From contig PKZC01000348.1 in NCBI GenBank assembly GCA_003132905.1, forward strand, positions 11,315 through 20,715: a DNA stretch of 9,401 nucleotides. The letters run 5' to 3'. This stretch comes from Bryobacterales bacterium (lineage in GTDB: Bacteria; Acidobacteriota; Terriglobia; Bryobacterales; Bryobacteraceae). Below, piece by piece: positions 1-9,401 of the stretch. The notes beneath the pieces were generated by a model. That model had not been told where the DNA came from and searched no databases. It saw only the letters and a program-made list of their open reading frames with translations. Positions within the stretch are counted from its first letter, which is position 1. The number at the start of each line of letters is the position of its first letter. Position numbers and translations under genes: made by a program.

Positions 1-1302
1 AGCCAGGCATTTGCCGATGTGGTGCGTTCCATCGCGTTCGCCAAAGAAGTGGGTCTCAAGCCGGTCTGCCGAGCGGGTGGGCACAATACCGCCGGTTACT
101 CCGTTAATGACGAAATGGTGATCGATGTAAGCGGGATCAACTACGTGCGCGTCGATCCGGACGCCCGCATCGCTTGGGTGGGAGCGGGCACCAATTTTGC
201 GCAGATCAACGCCACGCTCGAATTGTATGGACTGCATATGCCGGGCGGCGGTTGTGAGACGGTGTGCGCGGCTGGCTATGTACAAGGCGGTGGATACGGC
301 TTCACGTCCCTGATGTTCGGAATGAATTGCGACCAGGTAATTGGTTTGCAGATGGCGTTGGCCGACGGCCGCATTGTGAAGGCCAATGCGAACGAAAATG
401 CGGACCTGTTTTGGGCCGTTCTCGGCGGCACTGGCAACAACTTCGGCGTGCTGCTCGAAATCGAGTACCGTCTGCATGAGATCGGCAAGTTGTGGGGATT
501 TGGATTTAAGTGGCCGCTTGACACCGCCGAGCAGGCTGCGGCTGCCAGCATCGCTCTGCAGGTTTGGCAGGCGAATTTCACGGGGAAAACAGTCCCGCCG
601 AATCTTGGCCATGAGGCCATGTTGGCATACACGCAAGGTCCGAACGATGCCCTGGCGCCTTTTTTCTTGTTGCGCGGTATGTTCAATGGCACAGAAGCCG
701 CGTGCCAGAGCGTGCTGGCGCCGTTGCTCAAACTGATGCCAAATGTAGAACAGTATCGCGATATCTGGCGCGCAGAGACATACCGTGATTTGAACGTGTA
801 TCTGCTCACTTATCCGACCGAGCTTCCAGCCAACATCCCAGACTCCGCGCGATCGGTTGCCAAGTCCCATATTGTGGGCCGCCACCTGACGGTCGCCGAA
901 TTCGCCTCTATCGTTGAGCTCTTCCGCTCGTCGGGGAACGAGGACAACTTTATGGGCTTCGAACCCTATGGCGGCGCTATCAACGCCATCGCGCCGGACG
1001 CCAACGCGTTTTGGCATCGCACGGCGATGATGGATGTGTTCCTGTTCTCCTTCTGGCTGCTTGAAGACAATCGCGGCCGAGCCCTGGCCTATGTGAGCGA
1101 CTTCGACCGCGTGATTCAGCCGCTGTCCAACGGCTGCTCCTACCAGAACTATCCCAACCGGCACATCCAGGATTTCGGCAACGTGTACTTCGGCGGAAAT
1201 CTCCCGCGCCTGTTGCAGGTGAAACGAGCCTACGATCCGGATAACCTTTTCACTTTTCCGCAGGGTCTGGGATCAATAACGAAGGCGGCTGCCAGCCGCT
1301 AA
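1..1302 (+). CDS. FAD-linked oxidase of the berberine bridge enzyme (BBE) family, 5' end missing
   Basis: The frame is open from base 1, so the gene starts left of the window; the GTG at 19 is only the first internal start-like codon. 433 residues are visible and roughly 40-50 N-terminal residues appear to be missing. The family oxidises alcohols, sugars or alkaloid-type substrates with O2 and returns H2O2. The FAD-binding fold shows RAGGHNTAGYS (His codon 82-84, the usual 8-alpha-histidyl attachment site) and GGGCETV followed by QGGGYG. The Cys codon at 253-255 lies where BBE-type enzymes carry the second, 6-S-cysteinyl flavin bond, so bicovalent FAD is likely. The C-terminal BBE domain shows the YQNYPN motif, then YFGGN, then KRAYDPDNLFTFPQ. 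No secretion signal can be judged because the start is missing. The substrate cannot be predicted. The next gene lies 181 bp downstream, so co-transcription is not obvious. Confidence 0.9.
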   Translation, partial: SQAFADVVRSIAFAKEVGLKPVCRAGGHNTAGYSVNDEMVIDVSGINYVRVDPDARIAWVGAGTNFAQINATLELYGLHMPGGGCETVCAAGYVQGGGYGFTSLMFGMNCDQVIGLQMALADGRIVKANANENADLFWAVLGGTGNNFGVLLEIEYRLHEIGKLWGFGFKWPLDTAEQAAAASIALQVWQANFTGKTVPPNLGHEAMLAYTQGPNDALAPFFLLRGMFNGTEAACQSVLAPLLKLMPNVEQYRDIWRAETYRDLNVYLLTYPTELPANIPDSARSVAKSHIVGRHLTVAEFASIVELFRSSGNEDNFMGFEPYGGAINAIAPDANAFWHRTAMMDVFLFSFWLLEDNRGRALAYVSDFDRVIQPLSNGCSYQNYPNRHIQDFGNVYFGGNLPRLLQVKRAYDPDNLFTFPQGLGSITKAAASR

Positions 1303-2276: not shown

Positions 2277-4526
2277 ATGCTGGTTTCAGGCGACCGACTC
2301 GGGCCGTACCGGCTAGTGGCGTCCATTGGCAAAGGTGGTATGGGCGAAGTTTACCGCGCCACCGACACGCGCATGGGACGCGATGTCGCCATCAAAGTGG
2401 TAGCCGAACAGTTTATTGAACGTTTCGATCGCGAGGTCCGTGCCATCGCTGCGCTCAATCATCCCAATATCTGCACCATTCACGACGTCGGCCCCAACTA
2501 TCTGGTGATGGAATACGTGGATGGAGTTCCTCTCAAGGGTCCGCTACCCGAAGCTACGGCGATGCAATTCGCGGTGCAGATCGCGGCGGCTCTGGATGCG
2601 GCGCACGCCCGCGGGATCGTGCATTGCGATTTGAAGCCGGCCAATATGCTGGTCACCGGCGACCGGCTGAAGCTGCTCGATTTTGGCGTGGCGCGGTTGG
2701 CGTCGGCACCCAGGCCGGAACGGTTGCAGGCGGTACTGGCGACAGCTTCCCACCCTGTCGTCGACGGGGCTAATTCCCCGAATGAAGCAGAAACGGTGCA
2801 GTTTACAGTCAGCAACATGAGCGGCACGCCAGCCTACATGTCGCCGGAACAAGCGGCAGGCCTAATAGTAGACACACGTTCCGATATTTTTTCCCTCGGG
2901 GTGGTCCTCTATGAGCTGATCAGCGGCCGCCGGCCGTTCCCTGGCACCACCGTGAACGCGGTGCTATCGGCGATCCGTGAGAGCGACCCCGCGCCCCTGG
3001 ATGCTTCGGCTGAAGTGAGGCAGCTTGTGTTCCGCTGTTTGCGCAAAAGCCCGGACGAGCGCTTCCAGAGCATGGGCGAACTTCGGGTGGTTCTGGAAAA
3101 TGCAAAGGCGTCGCTCAACCGCAAAGAACCTTCCATCGCGGTGCTTCCCTTCGTTATGACCGGCGCGGGCGCTGAAAGCGAATACTTCAGCGAAGGGTTG
3201 GCCGAAGACATCATCAACGCGTTGTCCGGAGTCTCCGGCCTGAAGGTTATCGCACGCACTTCCACCTTCGCTTACAAAGACCAATCCCAGGATGTCCGCG
3301 CCATCGCCCAGGCGCTGGGAGTTGACCACGTGCTGGAAGGCAGCGTCCGCACAGCCGGTAACCGGATTCGCGTGAATACGCGGCTCATCTCGGGCCGCGA
3401 CGGCGCGCAGCTTTGGTCCAAGCGCTATGATCGCGACCTGAGCGACGTTTTCGTGATCCAGGATGAAATCTCGAACGCCATTGCCAACGAGCTCAAGCTC
3501 AGCCTTACTACGCAGAAGCTGGTGAAAGCTCCCACCACTCACTTCGCCGCCTACGAAGCGGTGTTGCAGGGCCGCTATCATTTTTATCGCTTCGATCCAT
3601 CGGACCAGGCCAAGGCGCTGGCTCACTTTGAAAGGGCCATCGCCATCGATCCGCAATATGCGGCAGCGCACATCGGCATTGCTCTGAATTATTGGGGTCA
3701 AATGGTGGTCGGCATGGCTGACCCGCGCCAAGCCATGCAGCGCTCCGTGGATGCCACCCGCGAAGCATTGCGTCTGGATCCTGCTCACTCCGAGGGCCAT
3801 CATATTCTTGGCAGCTATTACGCACTCCATGATTTCGATTGGGTGAAAGCGGAACACCACTTCAATCGAGCCCTGGAACTGAATCCGCATTCGCTGTGGG
3901 CCTACCATTGCAAAACGATTTACCTTCTTCTTCCCTTGGGCCGTCTCGAAGAAGCTGTCGAGTGCCAGGACCGGGCGATGGCAATCGATCCTTTGACGCC
4001 GGCGGTGCTCGCCAATCAGGCCCTTGCTTTGGAGGGCTTACAGAGGGAAGAGGAAGAGGCGCGGATCCTTTATCGCGTGACGCAGTTGGATCCCAATTTT
4101 GTGGGCGGCCAGTGGACTCTGGTTCGCTTCCGCATCCGCCAGGGCCGCATTGCCGAGGCTGTTGACTTAGCCACACGATTGGTTGAAACGGCGGGGCGCT
4201 GGGGCATGACACTGGGCGCATTGGGCGCTGCCTATGCCGCGTCGGGCAGGGTGGATGAGGCAGGCGAAATCATCGCCGAACTCGGCCTCGATCACAACCG
4301 TGAATCGCGCGCATTCTATTCTTTCCTGATCGCCGCCGCACTGGACGATCGCGACGCGGCCTTCCACTGGGCCCAAGAAAGTATCGAACATCGCGACCCC
4401 ATCATGCTGAGCTTCATTTGGACTTCCAGCTTTGACAAGCTGCGCGGCGATCCGCGTTTCATTGACCTGCTGCGTACGCTTAGGATGGAAGATCGAACGC
4501 CCGCTTCAACCAGCCGAGTAGTTTGA
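2277..4526 (+). CDS. Ser/Thr protein kinase fused to TolB-like domain and TPR repeats
   Basis: This 749-residue regulator has three parts. Residues 11-275 form a PknB-type kinase: glycine loop GKGGMGEV (18-25), ATP-anchoring Lys40, helix-C Glu53, catalytic loop HCDLKPAN (116-123), DFG (135-137), activation segment ending TPAYMSPE (184-191), and Asp203. The Arg of the usual HRD triplet is Cys117, making this a non-RD kinase. Both N-lobe linkers look short, and the activation segment is long (about 138-188). Residues 285-410 match the TolB-like domain (COG5616) of CadC- and adenylate-cyclase-associated regulators: SIAVLPF, YFSEGLAEDIINAL, ARTSTFAYK, VLEGSVR, LWSKRYDRDL. Residues 425-735 hold tetratricopeptide-like repeats, for example FERAIAIDP, FNRALELNP and QDRAMAIDP, which probably bind partners. 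No membrane helix separates the kinase from the rest, so a cytosolic protein is expected. The ATG at 2277 leads directly into the GPYRLV sequence that opens such kinases. The last 15 codons overlap the convergent peptidase gene. Targets are unknown. Confidence 0.93.
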   Translation: MLVSGDRLGPYRLVASIGKGGMGEVYRATDTRMGRDVAIKVVAEQFIERFDREVRAIAALNHPNICTIHDVGPNYLVMEYVDGVPLKGPLPEATAMQFAVQIAAALDAAHARGIVHCDLKPANMLVTGDRLKLLDFGVARLASAPRPERLQAVLATASHPVVDGANSPNEAETVQFTVSNMSGTPAYMSPEQAAGLIVDTRSDIFSLGVVLYELISGRRPFPGTTVNAVLSAIRESDPAPLDASAEVRQLVFRCLRKSPDERFQSMGELRVVLENAKASLNRKEPSIAVLPFVMTGAGAESEYFSEGLAEDIINALSGVSGLKVIARTSTFAYKDQSQDVRAIAQALGVDHVLEGSVRTAGNRIRVNTRLISGRDGAQLWSKRYDRDLSDVFVIQDEISNAIANELKLSLTTQKLVKAPTTHFAAYEAVLQGRYHFYRFDPSDQAKALAHFERAIAIDPQYAAAHIGIALNYWGQMVVGMADPRQAMQRSVDATREALRLDPAHSEGHHILGSYYALHDFDWVKAEHHFNRALELNPHSLWAYHCKTIYLLLPLGRLEEAVECQDRAMAIDPLTPAVLANQALALEGLQREEEEARILYRVTQLDPNFVGGQWTLVRFRIRQGRIAEAVDLATRLVETAGRWGMTLGALGAAYAASGRVDEAGEIIAELGLDHNRESRAFYSFLIAAALDDRDAAFHWAQESIEHRDPIMLSFIWTSSFDKLRGDPRFIDLLRTLRMEDRTPASTSRVV
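4480..4526. other. 47-bp convergent coding overlap (kinase tail / peptidase tail)
   Basis: The peptidase stop (TAA, 4482-4480 on the - strand) lies inside the kinase, and the kinase stop (TGA, 4524-4526) lies inside the peptidase. The shared bases encode about the last 15 residues of both proteins, just beyond their recognisable domain ends (LLRTLRM in the kinase, CTGLGSPHG in the peptidase). No separate terminator fits between them. Confidence 0.85.
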
Positions 4527-5985
4527 TCCCATGCGGACTGCCCAGTCCGGTGCATGCGTCCCACGTCTTGCGCGCGTCATATCCGTTTCGTCCGTCCAGA
4601 CGGTTGTTCCCCTCGTATGTGTTGCGCAGGCCAGGATTGCGCTTTCTGCGGTAGAGCAAAGGCGTGAAATACCCGATGCGGCGGCCGAGCGCTTCATTCA
4701 AGCAAGCCACCAGACCGGCCCAGAGGGGAGCAGTCGCGCTTGTGCCCCCGAGCGACATCGCGGTGTCATCCGCCCAAATCAAATAGCCTGTTGCGGCGCT
4801 CGCGTTGGCTGCCACGTCGGGGATACCTCGGCCTTTGGCACTGGTCCCAAAACGCGCGGGCACATGATGAGCCTCTTGAAATGTGGGCAAGCCAAAAAGC
4901 CGGCTGATGCCTCCGCCCGATGCGACGCCGGAAACTCTGGAATCGTTCCAAACAGTCTCGCGCCTGCGGGCGTCAGGGAGAATATCGAGACGCGTGCCGC
5001 CGCACGCCAATACATGCGGACTCGATGCCGGGTATGGCACCGAATAGGGCTGAGTGTTGGCCTCGAATACACCGCGATCGCCCGAAGAACAGCACACCGT
5101 GATTCCCAGCAACGCCGCCATTTGCAGAAGGTGCTCGATTGCCGCGATGGTCTGCGCATCCCAGTACATCTCGGCCTGGCCCCAACTAACCGACAAGACC
5201 GAAATGCGATGCTTCCGGTCAAAAATGGCGGCCTGCATCGCCTCAATCCAGCCCCGGCTACTGTTCTCCGCGAAATACACCACCAGAGTGGCGTGGGGCG
5301 CGACGCTGGCCAGAATCTCCAGATCCATGTAGACCTCGGCGTCCGGCGAGAGCGTGCCCTGCCGATTCAGCGGGTGATTTCCACCCGGCGCGATTTCGCG
5401 CACGATGATGCGCGGAGGCGTTACACCCAGCTTGTTCAGATAAGATCGGAGCTTCGCTCGCGAGAAACCGCCACCGAACTCCAGCACGGCGATGCACTGG
5501 CCCTTGCCGGTAGCATTCCTGGGAAATTCGTAAAGCTTACGAAAATCTTTGGGCCGCCGGGTGTTTGCTGTTACCGGGGGCGGCGTCATTGATTCTTCGG
5601 GCGGAAAGGCTATTCGGCCCGGACGTTTCGAAACGGGCCTTTTGTTCAGGCCGAAGACACCAATCACGCAATCCAACTCGAGGGGAATCTTCAACAACTT
5701 TCGAGTAGTGGTTCCAAAAGCCGCGCTCATCGCGTGCGCGGACCCGCGCAAGATGATCGTCCGGGTGCGCCTGTTCACGCGCGCGATTGTAAGCTGGTGT
5801 TTGGCCGCATAGCGGCGCACTGCCTCAATATCTGCTGCTTCGGCGGCGGATTCGCGAAGCAAAGTATCGATCTCAAAATGCCGCCGCTGGTTCCGCGACT
5901 CATGGACTGGCAGTTGGAAATTCTTATTCGGCCGCAACAAGACCAACACTTCCAGCATCTCTTTGCCCGATGTCGGGGCGCTCAT
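4480..5985 (-). CDS. S53 family serine-carboxyl pro-peptidase (sedolisin/kumamolisin type)
   Basis: This is a 501-residue acid endopeptidase precursor. Residues 1-125 match the activation pro-domain, including EAVRRYAAKHQLTI (55-67), an ILRGSAHAMSAAFG segment (78-91) and a Pro-rich linker to about 140. The catalytic domain begins near KDFRKLYEFP (146-155). Expected active-site residues are present: Glu217 and Asp221 in EVYMD, the oxyanion Asp303 in SSGDRG, and nucleophile Ser416 in GGTSATAPLW. The C-terminal WDACTGLGSPHG (475-486) is the family signature near the calcium site. The preceding FxDIT-type segment, which normally supplies a calcium-binding Asp, reads LRNTYEGNN, with Asn455 at that position. 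There is no signal peptide; kumamolisins are often found this way, so the export route is unclear. The ATG at 5985 has GGTGA about 7 bases upstream. The gene is divergent from the methyltransferase and overlaps the kinase tail-to-tail by 47 bp. Substrate is unknown; scavenging of extracellular protein would fit the family. Confidence 0.93.
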   Translation of the reverse strand: MSAPTSGKEMLEVLVLLRPNKNFQLPVHESRNQRRHFEIDTLLRESAAEAADIEAVRRYAAKHQLTIARVNRRTRTIILRGSAHAMSAAFGTTTRKLLKIPLELDCVIGVFGLNKRPVSKRPGRIAFPPEESMTPPPVTANTRRPKDFRKLYEFPRNATGKGQCIAVLEFGGGFSRAKLRSYLNKLGVTPPRIIVREIAPGGNHPLNRQGTLSPDAEVYMDLEILASVAPHATLVVYFAENSSRGWIEAMQAAIFDRKHRISVLSVSWGQAEMYWDAQTIAAIEHLLQMAALLGITVCCSSGDRGVFEANTQPYSVPYPASSPHVLACGGTRLDILPDARRRETVWNDSRVSGVASGGGISRLFGLPTFQEAHHVPARFGTSAKGRGIPDVAANASAATGYLIWADDTAMSLGGTSATAPLWAGLVACLNEALGRRIGYFTPLLYRRKRNPGLRNTYEGNNRLDGRNGYDARKTWDACTGLGSPHGIKLLGWLKRAFDLPS

Positions 5986-6046: not shown

Positions 6047-7027
6047 ATGGCCGCGTTAGATCCTACTTGGTTGTTGGATGAGTTCCGGGCTTTCGAGCGC
6101 ACGCTGGCTCTTCGAACTGCAATCGAGATGGATTTGTTCACGCGCATCGGCGACGGGACCAATACCGTTCGAGCGTTGTCGGCAGCCTGTGGATCCTCCG
6201 AGCGCGGCCTGCGTGCACTGTGCGACTACTTGACGGTGCAGGGGCACCTCGCAAAGAAAGGCGCGCGCTACACCCTCTCGCTGAACGCACGGCTCTATTT
6301 GACCACCGCTTCGCCGGCCTATTTTGGATCCGCCGTGAAGTTCTTCGCGAGCGATGCAACCGTGGCCGCGTTCTGCCGCCTTCGACAGACGGTAGAGCAG
6401 GGAACTGCCGCAGTCCCTGAATTGGATTGGGTGGAATATGCCCGCTCCATGGCGCCGCTCGCTGAAGCGACCGCCGAATTTGCCGCGAAGGCCCTGGTGT
6501 TGGATCCGGGCGCGCCGATTCAAGTGTTGGACCTGGGCGCGGGCCACGGCTTGTACGGACTCGCGATCGCGGTGCGAAATTCGTCGGCTCAAATCTTCGC
6601 TCTGGATGCCCCACAGGTCCTCGAAATAGCCAGCGACAATGCCCGCGAGGCTGGAGTGGACGGACGCTACCATCCGATTCCCGGCGACGCATTCAAGACC
6701 AGTTTCGGCGGCCCCTACGATCTCGTGCTGGCGGCTAATCTCGCACACCATTTCGATGCAGCCGCTAATGTCCGGCTCTTTCAGAAGGCGCGCGCTGCGC
6801 TCAAGCCCAAGGGACGCATCGCACTCATCGAATGGGTGCCCAACGCCGACCGGGTATCGCCATCGCATGACGCCGCTTTCGCGCTCACCGTGCTCGCCAC
6901 CAGTGCGCGCGGCGCAATCTATACGTTGAGAGAATATTCCAAAATGCTGCGCGCGGCGGGTTTCCGGCAAGTGCGCCGTTTGGATATCGGCGAGTTCGGG
7001 CGTTGGATCATCACTGCGTCACGCTGA
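6047..7027 (+). CDS. SAM-dependent O-methyltransferase-like protein with N-terminal winged-helix dimerisation region
   Basis: This 326-residue class I methyltransferase has the two-part layout of small-molecule O-methyltransferases such as plant caffeate/isoflavone and bacterial polyketide or hydroxyneurosporene enzymes. Residues 10-90 look like the winged-helix dimerisation region (ALRTAIEMDLFTRIG, then LSAACGSSERGLRALCDYL). The SAM-binding domain starts near 155 with motif I VLDLGAGHG (160-168). Acidic Asp187, in FALD, ends the second strand and should bind the ribose. GDAF follows at 213-216, then NLAHHF (231-236), LKPKGRIALIEW (252-263) and a C-terminal segment YSKMLRAAGF (297-306). The double His in NLAHHF is common in this family, but I cannot assign a catalytic base or acceptor. 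The gene is divergent from the peptidase. Its stop overlaps the stop of the opposing diiron oxidase gene by 9 bp, so it is not in that operon, although a shared metabolic role is conceivable. Confidence 0.88.
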   Translation: MAALDPTWLLDEFRAFERTLALRTAIEMDLFTRIGDGTNTVRALSAACGSSERGLRALCDYLTVQGHLAKKGARYTLSLNARLYLTTASPAYFGSAVKFFASDATVAAFCRLRQTVEQGTAAVPELDWVEYARSMAPLAEATAEFAAKALVLDPGAPIQVLDLGAGHGLYGLAIAVRNSSAQIFALDAPQVLEIASDNAREAGVDGRYHPIPGDAFKTSFGGPYDLVLAANLAHHFDAAANVRLFQKARAALKPKGRIALIEWVPNADRVSPSHDAAFALTVLATSARGAIYTLREYSKMLRAAGFRQVRRLDIGEFGRWIITASR

Positions 7028-7747
7028 CGCAGCGCGCGTTCTCTTGTCCGGTTCCGCGGCCAGTCCGGATTCAATGATGTCTTCCATGATCCCGGTCATC
7101 ATGCGGATGGTGCGCAGCGAACTGATGCCAATCAGTTCCATATGAGCCGGGGTCAACGGCAGCGCATCCAACACCGCGTCCAGATCCCGCGTGTGTTGCG
7201 GATCGATCTTGGCGTGATACAGAAAACTACTGAAACATTTGAGCGAAAGATTGTTGCGCTTGGCTGCTTCTTCAAAGAATTCGGCCGGAGGCGGATTGCC
7301 TTCCATGGTGGCGATAAAGCCGGCCAGCGCGATGGGATTGTAGTGATGAATCCAGTAATATTGGACCCCCACCAACTGCGTTGCGCTTTCCTTGGGAAGC
7401 CGTTGGAGAATGGCCTGGCGATCCATACCCAGAGCTACGCCGTCATTGACGATCCACTCATGATGGCCCATCTCTTCAGGAATGTGATGGCGCAGGTAAT
7501 TACCAAAGTCCCGCAGGACGGGATCTTCAGCGTGCATCGGCAACTGGCAAGCCTTTTCGGCGGCCTGCATGAGAGGCACGCTGGCCCGAATGATGGAATG
7601 GCTCTGGTAAATGTATTCCCGGTAGATGCGCGGAAATTGCGGATGAGTCCAGAATGAGTGAGCAGTGTGTCCCAGCCGCCCGCCGAAAAGCCGGATCTTG
7701 GATCGAATAATTTGACTGTTCGGGACCCGTTCGCTAGCTTTGGCCAT
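7019..7747 (-). CDS. Haem-oxygenase-like diiron oxidase (iron-containing redox enzyme family)
   Basis: This 242-residue, mostly helical protein matches the haem-oxygenase-like diiron oxidase (HDO) superfamily, which includes UndA, SznF and CADD. These enzymes use a diiron centre and O2 to oxidise small molecules or amino-acid side chains. The visible ligand pattern is Glu92 and His95 (EEMGH), Glu149 (TMEG), and His178, Asp182 and His185 (HAKIDPQH, an H-x3-D-x2-H). Spacing agrees closely with UndA and CADD, so all six iron ligands appear intact. It is therefore an oxidase rather than a true haem oxygenase or a thiaminase-type TenA. No signal peptide or membrane segment is seen. The ATG at 7747 lies 12 bp after the stop of the 84-residue peptide gene and has a modest GGCGAGA-like site, so translational coupling is likely. 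It is the last gene of its operon, and its stop overlaps the methyltransferase stop. Its substrate is unknown; the neighbouring peptide is one candidate. Confidence 0.85.
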   Translation of the reverse strand: MAKASERVPNSQIIRSKIRLFGGRLGHTAHSFWTHPQFPRIYREYIYQSHSIIRASVPLMQAAEKACQLPMHAEDPVLRDFGNYLRHHIPEEMGHHEWIVNDGVALGMDRQAILQRLPKESATQLVGVQYYWIHHYNPIALAGFIATMEGNPPPAEFFEEAAKRNNLSLKCFSSFLYHAKIDPQHTRDLDAVLDALPLTPAHMELIGISSLRTIRMMTGIMEDIIESGLAAEPDKRTRAASA

Positions 7748-7759
7748 TCTCGCCAGTAT

Positions 7760-8014
7760 TTAGTAATACATTCCGTGCGTGGCGTGTTTGGAGAAAAACT
7801 TGGTCCCCATCTTAGTCTTGGTGGAGATGACCGCTGACACTTCGCTGGCCGAAAGCGACGCCAGGGCCTTCTTTTCAGCCGGTGTGAAATGCGGGTAGTC
7901 GGCAGGAATAACTCCTGCTTTCGTAAGCGCGGCCAGATTCTTGTCCGCACCGGTGGTTTTCGCACTCGCCGCTTTCTTAGCAGGCGCTTTTTTGGCGGAC
8001 GTTTTCATTGCCAT
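7760..8014 (-). CDS. Small Lys/Ala-rich peptide, candidate substrate of flanking oxidases
   Basis: The product is 84 residues and I do not recognise its family. Residues 1-22 are a basic Lys/Ala/Ser/Thr/Pro run resembling histone-H1-type or nucleoid-protein tails. The middle (about 25-66) looks helical, with ADYPHFTPAEKKAL followed by LSASEVSAVIS. The tail KFFSKHATHGMYY (72-84) is rich in His and aromatic residues and ends in two tyrosines. There is no Cys or Trp and no hydrophobic secretion signal. The ATG at 8014 has a strong site, AGAGGGA, about 7 bases upstream; a second in-frame ATG is codon 3. The gene lies 33 bp after the flavoprotein and 12 bp before the diiron oxidase on the same strand, so it is surely part of that operon. 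The possibilities are a ribosomally made peptide with an N-terminal leader and oxidised C-terminal core, a small partner protein, or a DNA-binding protein. The gene call is secure and the role is open. Confidence 0.8.
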   Translation of the reverse strand: MAMKTSAKKAPAKKAASAKTTGADKNLAALTKAGVIPADYPHFTPAEKKALASLSASEVSAVISTKTKMGTKFFSKHATHGMYY

Positions 8015-8047
8015 CGTTGGTCCCTCTTTCTTTTGTCGTTGGAGCTA

Positions 8048-9115
8048 TCAGGTTGATGTTATAACCGAGCTCTCGGAATTTGCAAGAGGATTCGATAGAA
8101 ATTCGAAATTTTGCAGCCAGACGGGTGGTTCCTCGAGTTCGGCATAGCGCGCTGCGAGTTGCCGCGCCTGATCCAGGAACTGATCGGCACACCAGCGGCG
8201 ATACAGCATGGCTCCCGCCTGCGCGTCCATTTCGTTATTTGTAATCTGAGCGATGAAATCTGCGGCCTTCATGCCACTGGACAACGCCCGCGCAACTCCG
8301 CTCGATGCCGCCGGATCAAGCACAGCGGCAGCGTCGCCGCAAAGAAAGTACCCAGCTCCCGCACATTCGGGAACCAAGCGCCAGGTGACGTCGGCCCCTC
8401 GAAAACGGACATCCGGAGAATCAAATGGAGAAGGAGGAACTGACCCGACGGCATCGGCAGCCAGTGAAAGTTGAACACATTGACAACAATCTTCCTGTAC
8501 TCGCGCCAGCCAAGTCCAGCCACATCCATGTTCGCGGAGTTCAGGAATTACTCCCAGATCGCAATCTCCGCGAAAGTAAGCGTATCGGGCCACCAGCCGG
8601 GGAGAAAAATCTTGCACGCGCAATCGGAGACTTCGCCGCAGAAGCCGATTCGCCCCGGAGGCGTCGACCAGGTTCCGGCAAAGCCACGTCTTACCTTCGG
8701 CCTCGATTCCAGCCACTAGACCGCCTCTCAGGATTACGCTAGCGTGGCTCACCGGTTGAACCACCGTCACGCCCGCGCGTAGCGCGCGATTCAGGAGAAT
8801 GGAATCCAAATCCGAACGCCAGCATTGATATCCAAAGCCCAGGCCGGATTGCCCTTCAAAAGGCACGAAAGCACGCTCGCCCGATCGTTCTCTGATCCAG
8901 CCTGGGTAGCGCAGGAACCCAGCCTTCGAAATGGCGTCAGCTACGCCCAACTCGTCGAATAGGCGTTCAACGTCAGGATGAAGCGCTTCGCCGGGTAGAT
9001 CTCGTGGGAAGTTCGCCTTCTCGATCAGGGCGACGTGCAAGCCGTGGGTGGCCGCGCGGATTGCCGCCGCGGAGCCGGCCGGACCGGCACCCACGACCAG
9101 TACGTCAAAAACCAC
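8048..9115 (-). CDS. FAD-dependent oxidoreductase, LodB/QhpG/flavin-halogenase-like, compact form
   Basis: This 355-residue flavoprotein of the p-hydroxybenzoate-hydroxylase fold begins at GTG 9115, which places the Rossmann motif GAGPAG at residues 9-14. Glu32 ends the second strand for FAD ribose binding. PGEALHP (41-47) resembles the GESL-P segment of flavin halogenases. RSDLD (100-104) is typical of the fold. CGDAAAVLDPAASSG (259-273) combines the second FAD site with the DP-x2-SSG loop shared by halogenases and LodB-like proteins. At the place of the halogenase WxWxIP motif it reads WTWLARV (200-206). The catalytic Lys region is not recognisable, and the protein is much shorter than tryptophan halogenases (over 500 residues). 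Hydroxylation or dehydrogenation is therefore likelier than halogenation. LodB and QhpG, from the same group, modify Trp in quinone-cofactor enzymes, a precedent for acting on a peptide. The gene begins 2 bp after the hydrolase stop and ends 33 bp before the peptide gene. A reductase for FAD is not seen nearby. Confidence 0.85.
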   Translation of the reverse strand: MVFDVLVVGAGPAGSAAAIRAATHGLHVALIEKANFPRDLPGEALHPDVERLFDELGVADAISKAGFLRYPGWIRERSGERAFVPFEGQSGLGFGYQCWRSDLDSILLNRALRAGVTVVQPVSHASVILRGGLVAGIEAEGKTWLCRNLVDASGANRLLRRSLRLRVQDFSPRLVARYAYFRGDCDLGVIPELREHGCGWTWLARVQEDCCQCVQLSLAADAVGSVPPSPFDSPDVRFRGADVTWRLVPECAGAGYFLCGDAAAVLDPAASSGVARALSSGMKAADFIAQITNNEMDAQAGAMLYRRWCADQFLDQARQLAARYAELEEPPVWLQNFEFLSNPLANSESSVITST

Positions 9116-9117
9116 GA

Positions 9118-9401
9118 CTACGCGAGTGCGCCTTTATACAACGCGGTCAGCTTGCCCCAAGCGCGGTCGGCCTCGGCTTTGTCGTAAGTAGGAGTGCCGT
9201 CCGCCTGCTTGGGCATATCCGGAACGCACCAGCCGTGATAACAGGTGGAGTAAACTTCAATCTCGGCCGGATTGCCCGCTGCAATGAACGCTTCCTTCAG
9301 CTTGTCTTTCGCGTCCGGTTGCTGCTTGTCGTCGCTCATCGCGATTCCGAAATACATCTTCGCCTTGATCTTCGGCGCGAGCAGATGCGGGCTGTCGGGC
9401 T
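9118..9401 (-). CDS. Dienelactone hydrolase family protein, C-terminal part (cut at right edge)
   Basis: The frame stays open to the window edge. Codons before the internal ATG at 9357 encode PDSPHLLAPKIKAK, which reads on into MYFGIAMSDD, the pattern expected of dienelactone-hydrolase relatives. The ATG is therefore an internal methionine and about 93 C-terminal residues are visible. These alpha/beta-hydrolases open dienelactones or cleave small esters with a Cys-Asp-His triad. The His is seen in YHGWCVPD, the HGF/HGW motif, and the Asp is probably in the AMSDD segment; the Cys nucleophile lies outside the window. The tail YDKAEADRAWGKLTALY is also typical of the family. It is the most upstream visible gene of the - strand operon, ending 2 bp before the flavoprotein start, so the two are co-transcribed. 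Whether it takes part in the same pathway is unknown. Confidence 0.85.
   Translation of the reverse strand, partial: PDSPHLLAPKIKAKMYFGIAMSDDKQQPDAKDKLKEAFIAAGNPAEIEVYSTCYHGWCVPDMPKQADGTPTYDKAEADRAWGKLTALYKGALA

Follow-up and report, generated by a model that had tools for sequence, protein, structure and literature searches.

Three adjacent genes on the minus strand of a Bryobacterales genome fragment (contig PKZC01000348.1, positions 11,315 to 20,715; this whole stretch of 9,401 nucleotides is termed “the window”) encode a flavin-dependent monooxygenase-like protein, an 84-residue peptide and a haem-oxygenase-like dimetal oxidase (HDO). We propose that they probably form a small system of the RiPP type (a class named for peptides that are synthesized by the ribosome and modified after translation), with the aromatic C-terminal tail of the peptide as the target of both oxidases. 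An earlier reading made from the sequence only had cast the peptide as the shared substrate of the two enzymes. This idea is supported by fusions of the flavoprotein to the peptide in 12 of 120 listed homologues, by equal sizes of the contigs that carry relatives of the three proteins, and by HDO-peptide pairs in other lineages; what the enzymes would do to the peptide we infer. The same three lines place homologues of the peptide beside such enzymes elsewhere, which is the point at which the sequence-only reading had declared that it could fail.

A search of 5.8 billion proteins returned 57 homologues of the peptide at E ≤ 0.01, which are 60-96% identical over the aligned part. Judged by these relatives, the 84-residue peptide is a real gene and not a chance open reading frame (ORF). 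Together with 12 copies fused to a flavoprotein and the window peptide itself they form an alignment of 70 sequences, in which distant forms are under-represented, since all were found by likeness to the window proteins. The C-terminus is conserved: the last 12 residues (consensus FFSKHATHGMYY) are the best-conserved segment, with a mean pairwise identity of 0.80, as compared to 0.71-0.72 from position -58 to -13 and 0.25 in the Lys/Ala stretch. The chain ends in Tyr (64) or Phe (6) at -1, preceded by Tyr (50), Phe (19) or Leu (1) at -2 and by an invariant Met at -3 (70/70), while Gly at -4, His at -8 and Phe at -11 are each found in 69 sequences and replaced once by Ala, Gln and Leu, respectively.

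Residues 26-70 resemble NF045560, a RiPP-cluster domain named “aroma-sacti cluster domain” by NCBI, with 26.3 bits (E 6.7e-6; curated cut-off 30 bits), and the helices predicted between positions 386 and 430 in the model of a fused homologue (P0288) correspond to this part. The division of the peptide into a Lys/Ala-rich leader half and a C-terminal core, as originally suggested, therefore needs to be redrawn. The core stands, and comprises about the last 12-15 residues, where conservation is highest; the recognition part corresponds to residues 26-70 rather than to the variable, poorly conserved Lys/Ala-rich N-terminus. Accordingly, a short precursor gene adjoins enzyme genes and carries a recognition domain distinct from its core, which, combined with the presumed modification, is what characterizes a RiPP locus. 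The term “aroma-sacti” was not found in the literature search, and the meaning of the name is known from NCBIfam alone. A sactipeptide, at which the domain name hints, was rejected, because the window peptide has no Cys.

The flavoprotein and the peptide are physically joined in a subset of relatives. In 12 of the best 120 of 318 flavoprotein homologues a complete peptide forms the C-terminus of the enzyme, and three kinds of junction can be told apart by eye. The junction is alike in P0284, P0286, P0287, P0288, P0290, P0291, P0293 and P0294; in P0191, P0192 and P0208 translation seems to run on across the ribosome-binding stretch (with an ...EEG..MAKK similar to the in-frame KEGPTM of the window); and P0264 has a junction of its own. 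Some of the fused genes may also make free peptide from an internal start. In the window, the three genes lie in one frame, since the gaps of 33 nt (flavoprotein/peptide) and 12 nt (peptide/HDO), which the ORF reading confirmed along with the positions of the genes, are both multiples of three; in-frame stops separate them (TGA-TAG after the flavoprotein, TAA after the peptide). The strong ribosome binding site attributed to the peptide gene is well placed, as a Shine-Dalgarno-like GAGGG ends 7 nt 5' of the ATG (by eye), and it is a good rather than a perfect match to AGGAGG.

Co-occurrence among the relatives of the window proteins was read from longest contigs of equal size across three homologue lists, comprising 57 peptides, the 120 flavoproteins mentioned above and the best 120 of 149 HDOs. 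Considering longest contigs of more than 5 kb, 14 of the 20 sizes seen for the peptides recur among the listed flavoproteins and 5 of 20 among the listed HDOs, and 13 of the 39 sizes seen for the HDOs recur among the flavoproteins. The sizes 2742, 7593, 9147, 12856 and 212578 are common to all three lists. Fused flavoproteins match HDO contig sizes at 380470, 19541, 12808 and 2390, and a pair labelled Burkholderiales matches at 18581. Homologues with an organism label belong to Bryobacteraceae (P0005, P0016, P0068, P0182, P0197), Burkholderiales (P0147, P0266) and Halioglobus (P0149).

Pairs of HDO and peptide are also found in other lineages. Searches with the HDO only yielded 15 loci in genome contigs, five plasmid records, and matches in 3 of 200 genomes (including G001) and 3 of 398 genomes (including G002); among the plasmid records H3 and H5 were examined, and H1, H2 and H4 (also Sinorhizobium fredii) were left out. 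Seven loci harbour an HDO of the window clade, and each of them has an NF045560-like peptide near the HDO. Three loci stem from the phylum of G001: L001, where the peptide (...GADFF, 16.9 bits against NF045560) ends 6 nt before the HDO gene, L024 (...GADFF, 33.2 bits) and L025 (...GALIF, 33.1 bits), the latter two over the cut-off. The other four stem from Pseudomonadota. In L002 (Paraburkholderia polaris) the peptide (...GNIIF, 23.9 bits) is followed by two radical-SAM genes and the HDO; in L026 the peptide (...RPMMF, 33.2 bits, over the cut-off) is divergent; in L027 it touches the HDO start (...VGIVI, 19.9 bits) and a papain-like protease follows; and in L019, located on an S. fredii plasmid, it is found with a YcaO gene and a divergent HDO (...VICGL, 12.5 bits, E 0.13). 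Hence, other RiPP enzymes accompany the HDO-peptide pair in two of the seven loci, L002 and L019. The profile that detects L019 at E 5e-4 was built with L001 and L002, and therefore only five loci are independent. The C-termini of the eight HDO-linked peptides, including that of the window, read YY, FF, FF, IF, IF, MF, VI and GL. Six of the eight end in Phe or Tyr, as compared to 5 of 65 among long ORFs called mechanically at these loci; L001 and L024 may not be independent in this comparison. When NF045560 was searched in 200 genomes of one phylum, seven matches were obtained at E ≤ 0.01; two of them exceeded the cut-off, and these are the peptides beside the HDOs at L024 and L025.

At 19 loci of a more distant HDO clade (L003-L015, L020, L036-L040), the peptide profile found nothing in the DNA examined (best E 4.3). 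The distant clade includes Lysobacteraceae, Pseudoxanthomonas, Pseudoalteromonas and others; L020 has an annotated row of thermostable hemolysin, AMP-binding protein/AMP-ligase, HDO and SDR genes, and by eye a comparable arrangement seems to recur at L036 and L038-L040. HDO searches within single orders added no peptide locus: the order of G002 (300 genomes) gave G002 and five matches near 1e-26 with no peptide in ~3-3.5 kb each, the order of G532 (150 genomes) only G532, that of G107 (151 genomes) only G107 and G150, and that of G521 (285 genomes) only G521. Distant HDOs may be missed by these searches, since only part of the candidates of each genome was scored (at most seven in one search). 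Two observations concern single loci. At L002, a second small ORF (5368-5631, plus strand; 87 residues, second half hydrophobic by eye, no Pfam match) directly precedes the row of precursor, radical-SAM pair and HDO. The contig of L001 is titled Candidatus Kuenenia stuttgartiensis, yet by eye its gene content does not resemble that of this organism, and the bin may be misnamed.

The HDO matches PF14518 with 42.1 bits (Pfam cut-off 28.9) and adopts a haem oxygenase-like fold. Its predicted ligands E92, H95, E149, H178, D182 and H185 are invariant in 69 of 69 sequences; they were assigned by conservation and by spacing as in UndA, and the predicted metal-binding motif also occurs in 3dde. Family match, fold and ligand set are those of a haem-oxygenase-like dimetal oxidase, which the initial call had described as a diiron enzyme. 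The fold is nearer to 3dde than to CADD, and haem oxygenases are about as close. CADD and UndA share the fold and the 3-His/3-carboxylate ligand type with the window HDO; they differ in sequence (~15% identity by structure alignment) and in substrate, which is a fatty acid for UndA and a protein-borne Tyr, its own, for CADD, according to the accessible text of PMC13108848. No relative turned up in viral contigs scanned with the HDO alignment, and the VIA lists gave no closer family, which excludes nothing.

The flavoprotein matches Trp_halogenase (PF04820) with 60.5 bits at a Pfam cut-off of 21. Among NCBIfam models QhpG ranks first (93.3 bits), ahead of a geranylgeranyl-reductase superfamily model (91.4) and CmlS (84.9), while GoxB comes fourth (70.1) and LodB sixth (59.3). 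The description as “LodB/halogenase-like” is thus borne out as a likeness, with QhpG being closer; every score stays far below the cut-off of its model, which for the equivalogs is 240 bits (QhpG) or 400 bits (GoxB, LodB). Flavin-dependent halogenases are characterized by a catalytic Lys. In the corresponding column, taken from an alignment to CmlS, FasV and Bmp2, none of 119 residues is a Lys (two further sequences have gaps), and a halogenase function was set aside on this ground. W73, W200 and W202 are present in 119, 120 and 121 of 121 sequences, respectively, and are likened to the channel residues Trp74, Trp181 and Trp183 reported for QhpG (PMC7876137, available in part), an equivalence drawn by order and not by superposition. 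The window protein shares with QhpG the fold (7ctq), the FAD-site residues and these channel residues, and is shorter (355 residues versus 423 QhpG model positions). As stated in the same source, the target of QhpG, LodB and GoxB is a residue within a partner protein, QhpG being a peptidyl-Trp dihydroxylase; in contrast, the candidate substrate in the window is a small peptide without Trp that ends in Tyr/Phe. At the level of sequence, the flavoprotein and the HDO each retain the residues that a working catalyst is expected to have.

In the mechanism that we propose, the 84-residue peptide would be the substrate and its helical middle domain a handle bound by both enzymes. The last ~12 residues, ending in two aromatic side chains with a free carboxylate, would enter the active sites of both. 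The HDO may well oxidize the C-terminal residue next to the carboxylate, by desaturation or oxidative decarboxylation, and we give this assignment about even chances. The C-terminal residue is proposed because the HDO-linked peptides share a hydrophobic, mostly aromatic end, and the position beside the carboxylate because HDOs take fatty and amino acids as substrates and UndA attacks at the carboxylate (PMC13108848, as far as accessible). Other enzymes are reported to carry out C-terminal oxidative decarboxylation in RiPPs, namely a flavoenzyme, a P450, an MNIO, a 2OG enzyme and, in mycofactocin, a radical-SAM enzyme (PMC12871766). By analogy to QhpG and its peptidyl Trp, the flavoprotein would place a hydroxyl group, rather than a halogen, on one of the aromatic rings in the tail, a role that we consider neither favoured nor disfavoured on balance. 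The exchange of Phe and Tyr at -1 and -2 suggests that neither ring must carry a hydroxyl group beforehand.

The fate of the product can be outlined only tentatively. The convergent O-methyltransferase could methylate it, which is possible and on balance rather doubtful. With still more reserve, the product might be a conserved small redox cofactor or a signal, i.e., an O2-dependent counterpart of mycofactocin or pyrroloquinoline quinone (PQQ). In either role, the flavoprotein and the HDO would convert the C-terminal Met-Tyr/Phe-Tyr/Phe to an excised, oxidized aromatic molecule used by many relatives. A cofactor or signal, as opposed to an antibiotic, would fit the near-invariant core in 70 sequences, which is unlike the variable cores to be expected in antimicrobial peptides; in fused relatives, moreover, the enzyme carries its own substrate.

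Several observations weigh against a RiPP-type system with two peptide-directed oxidases. Pfam and NCBIfam give the HDO no RiPP-enzyme label; the window peptide falls short of the NF045560 cut-off, as do four of the seven outside peptides (L002, L027, L001, L019). The genome search with NF045560 gave no match at E ≤ 1e-4 across 299 genomes belonging to the G002 phylum and none in G001 or G002; since it missed the known peptides of G001 (L001) and G002 (L002), its zeros are no proof of absence. An RRE domain, a transporter or a dedicated leader protease was not identified beside the trio, in a window that cuts the operon. The last five residues of the fused P0288 model have a confidence (pLDDT) below 50, and the peptide tail is therefore not placeable in the flavin site. 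Co-location in the window relatives rests on equal contig sizes and not on contig names, and matches between short contigs may be due to chance, since short sizes such as 1660 and 1711 are shared by different proteins of a single list. Finally, the enzyme relatives from Burkholderiales and Halioglobus, whose DNA lay outside the search, yielded no peptide.

The flavoprotein profile also matches nothing at the seven outside loci (5.4-17.5 kb each examined). HDO and NF045560-type peptides without a flavoprotein are what would be expected if one enzyme only used the peptide and the other acted on a free small molecule, for instance by halogenating or hydroxylating it in a nearby pathway. This is improbable in the light of the flavoprotein-peptide fusions and the 14 of 20 contig sizes that peptides have in common with listed flavoproteins. 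The same fusions can be turned to another purpose: if the peptide is a domain of the enzyme itself in 12 of 120 cases, it might stay whole, as an adaptor or regulatory subunit of flavoprotein and HDO, or as a structural protein with a tail cofactor (such as CTQ in QhpC). Conservation of the entire helical domain at 0.71-0.72 and a Lys/Ala-rich N-terminus unlike typical leaders fit this possibility, yet the domain resembles one that NCBI named for RiPP clusters, its type occurs with a radical-SAM pair and with YcaO elsewhere, and the extreme C-terminus is the best-conserved part; a lasting whole-protein role therefore seems unlikely to us.

The peptide might also serve as a sacrificial donor, from the Tyr of which the HDO makes p-aminobenzoate in a CADD-like manner. 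This we regard as very improbable: a terminal Tyr is not needed, as 6 of 70 sequences end in Phe and the wider family also has Phe, Ile or Leu ends (FF, IF, MF, VI, GL), and in fold 3dde is closer than CADD, with haem oxygenases about as near. That three unrelated genes merely happen to be adjacent is contradicted by the fusions, the shared contig sizes and the pairing of HDO and peptide in other lineages, and has hardly any chance of being correct. A RiPP-type system acting on the aromatic tail remains the interpretation that we prefer.

HDO-like proteins in RiPP clusters are already known, and the present locus can be compared to several precedents. VarO is a heme oxygenase-like protein encoded in the thioamidated-RiPP cluster for thiovarsolin; deletion of varO alters the products and suggests a dehydrogenase (PMC6511847). 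It parallels the presumed role of the window HDO in altering a ribosomal peptide, and differs by its YcaO-TfuA cluster, repeating precursors and a proposed Arg side-chain target; among the seven genes named in the accessible part of that report there is no flavoprotein. Sinorhizobium clusters for thioamidated RiPPs (YcaO) include a heme oxygenase-like gene (PMC8120280, in the part available), and L019 looks like such a cluster. Its HDO is 33-35% identical to that of the window, but YcaO replaces the flavoprotein, and the peptide matches NF045560 weakly and ends in ICGL. In mycofactocin, the C-terminal Val-Tyr pair of MftA is the core of a short precursor (PMC7491314, in part). The window peptide likewise would be a short precursor with a C-terminal core, whereas MftC is a radical-SAM enzyme and the window candidates use O2. 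In borosins the precursor is fused to its modifying enzyme, a methyltransferase. The fused flavoprotein-peptide homologues similarly combine an enzyme with its own substrate, in this case a flavoprotein, and in the window the genes are separate. A description of the flavoprotein-peptide-HDO trio or of the flavoprotein-precursor fusion was not found in the literature joining HDO or flavin with RiPP terms, a search that left subscription papers largely outside; the statement that no named system has this exact trio agrees with the literature searched.

The layout of the locus is summarized in Table 1. Only 2 nt separate the end of the dienelactone-hydrolase gene from the flavoprotein gene that follows it, and the operon therefore probably begins outside the window. 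A Pfam scan of the nine window proteins detected no radical-SAM enzyme, MftC included, in an operon that probably extends beyond the window. The O-methyltransferase gene overlaps the 3' end of the HDO gene by 9 nt. Its 3' part, read in antisense, continues the HDO tails of P0058 (E 1.8e-19), P0060 (6.3e-18) and P0061 (6.3e-8) and, weakly, P0094 (8e-5). These are four out of 32 long tails examined; among 1600 shuffled tails the lowest E was 0.001. Judged from these tails, the O-methyltransferase is a kept neighbour of the HDO in some relatives.

Table 1. Features of the flavoprotein-peptide-HDO locus and its flanks (window coordinates).
Feature	Position	Strand	Basis or remark
Flavoprotein, 355 aa, GTG start	9115-8048	-	FAD-dependent monooxygenase-like; variant-B halogenase/QhpG fold
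Precursor-like peptide, 84 aa, ATG start	8014-7760	-	57 homologues, alignment, fused form in 12/120 listed flavoproteins
HDO, haem-oxygenase-like dimetal oxidase (PF14518), 242 aa, ATG start	7747-7019	-	Predicted 3-His/3-carboxylate ligands
Shine-Dalgarno-like sequence of peptide gene, AAAGAGGG, 7 nt before ATG	8022..8029	-	By eye
Peptide residues 1-25, variable Lys/Ala-rich N-terminal extension	7940..8014	-	Alignment
Peptide residues 26-70, leader-like domain resembling NF045560 (aroma_sacti)	7805..7939	-	26.3 bits
Presumed core, last 12 residues FFSKHATHGMYY	7763..7798	-	Conservation in 70 sequences
O-methyltransferase (PF00891 + PF08100), convergent with HDO, possible accessory gene	6047..7027	+	Pfam
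Dienelactone-hydrolase gene, 3' end, cut by window edge, probably co-transcribed	9118..9399	-	ORF list, Pfam

Further genes of the window include a peptidase (4480-5985, minus strand) and a berberine-bridge-enzyme-like FAD oxidase (1-1302, plus strand) cut by the window edge. The peptidase, which matches S8 and pro-kumamolisin (S53-like) and is oriented divergently to the O-methyltransferase, might serve leader removal or be unrelated. A Ser/Thr kinase with a FlgO-like domain and TPR repeats (2277-4526, plus strand) lies ~2.5 kb from the HDO, from which it is separated by the peptidase and methyltransferase genes. A large signalling-type gene adjoins the HDO-peptide pair, or lies close to it, at five of the seven outside loci: L001 and L024 have Ser/Thr kinases, L025 has only a TPR protein, and L019 (~2 kb from the peptide) and L026 have cyclase-TPR proteins, that of L026 also having NB-ARC. 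Some of these genomes contain many such genes: G532 has 19 cyclase domains, G001 has 20 kinase domains and G107 has 51. The nearby signalling-type genes give a hint of a signalling role for the product.

A validated function has been assigned to only about a dozen HDOs (PMC13108848, as far as available), and peptide-modifying HDOs are barely explored. In several lineages the clade described here occurs together with its likely substrates, and it leads to a simple prediction, namely HDO-linked chemistry at a C-terminal aromatic residue. The flavoprotein-precursor fusions would provide a ready-made single-chain pair of substrate and enzyme, and the conserved core hints at a shared metabolite and not at a weapon.

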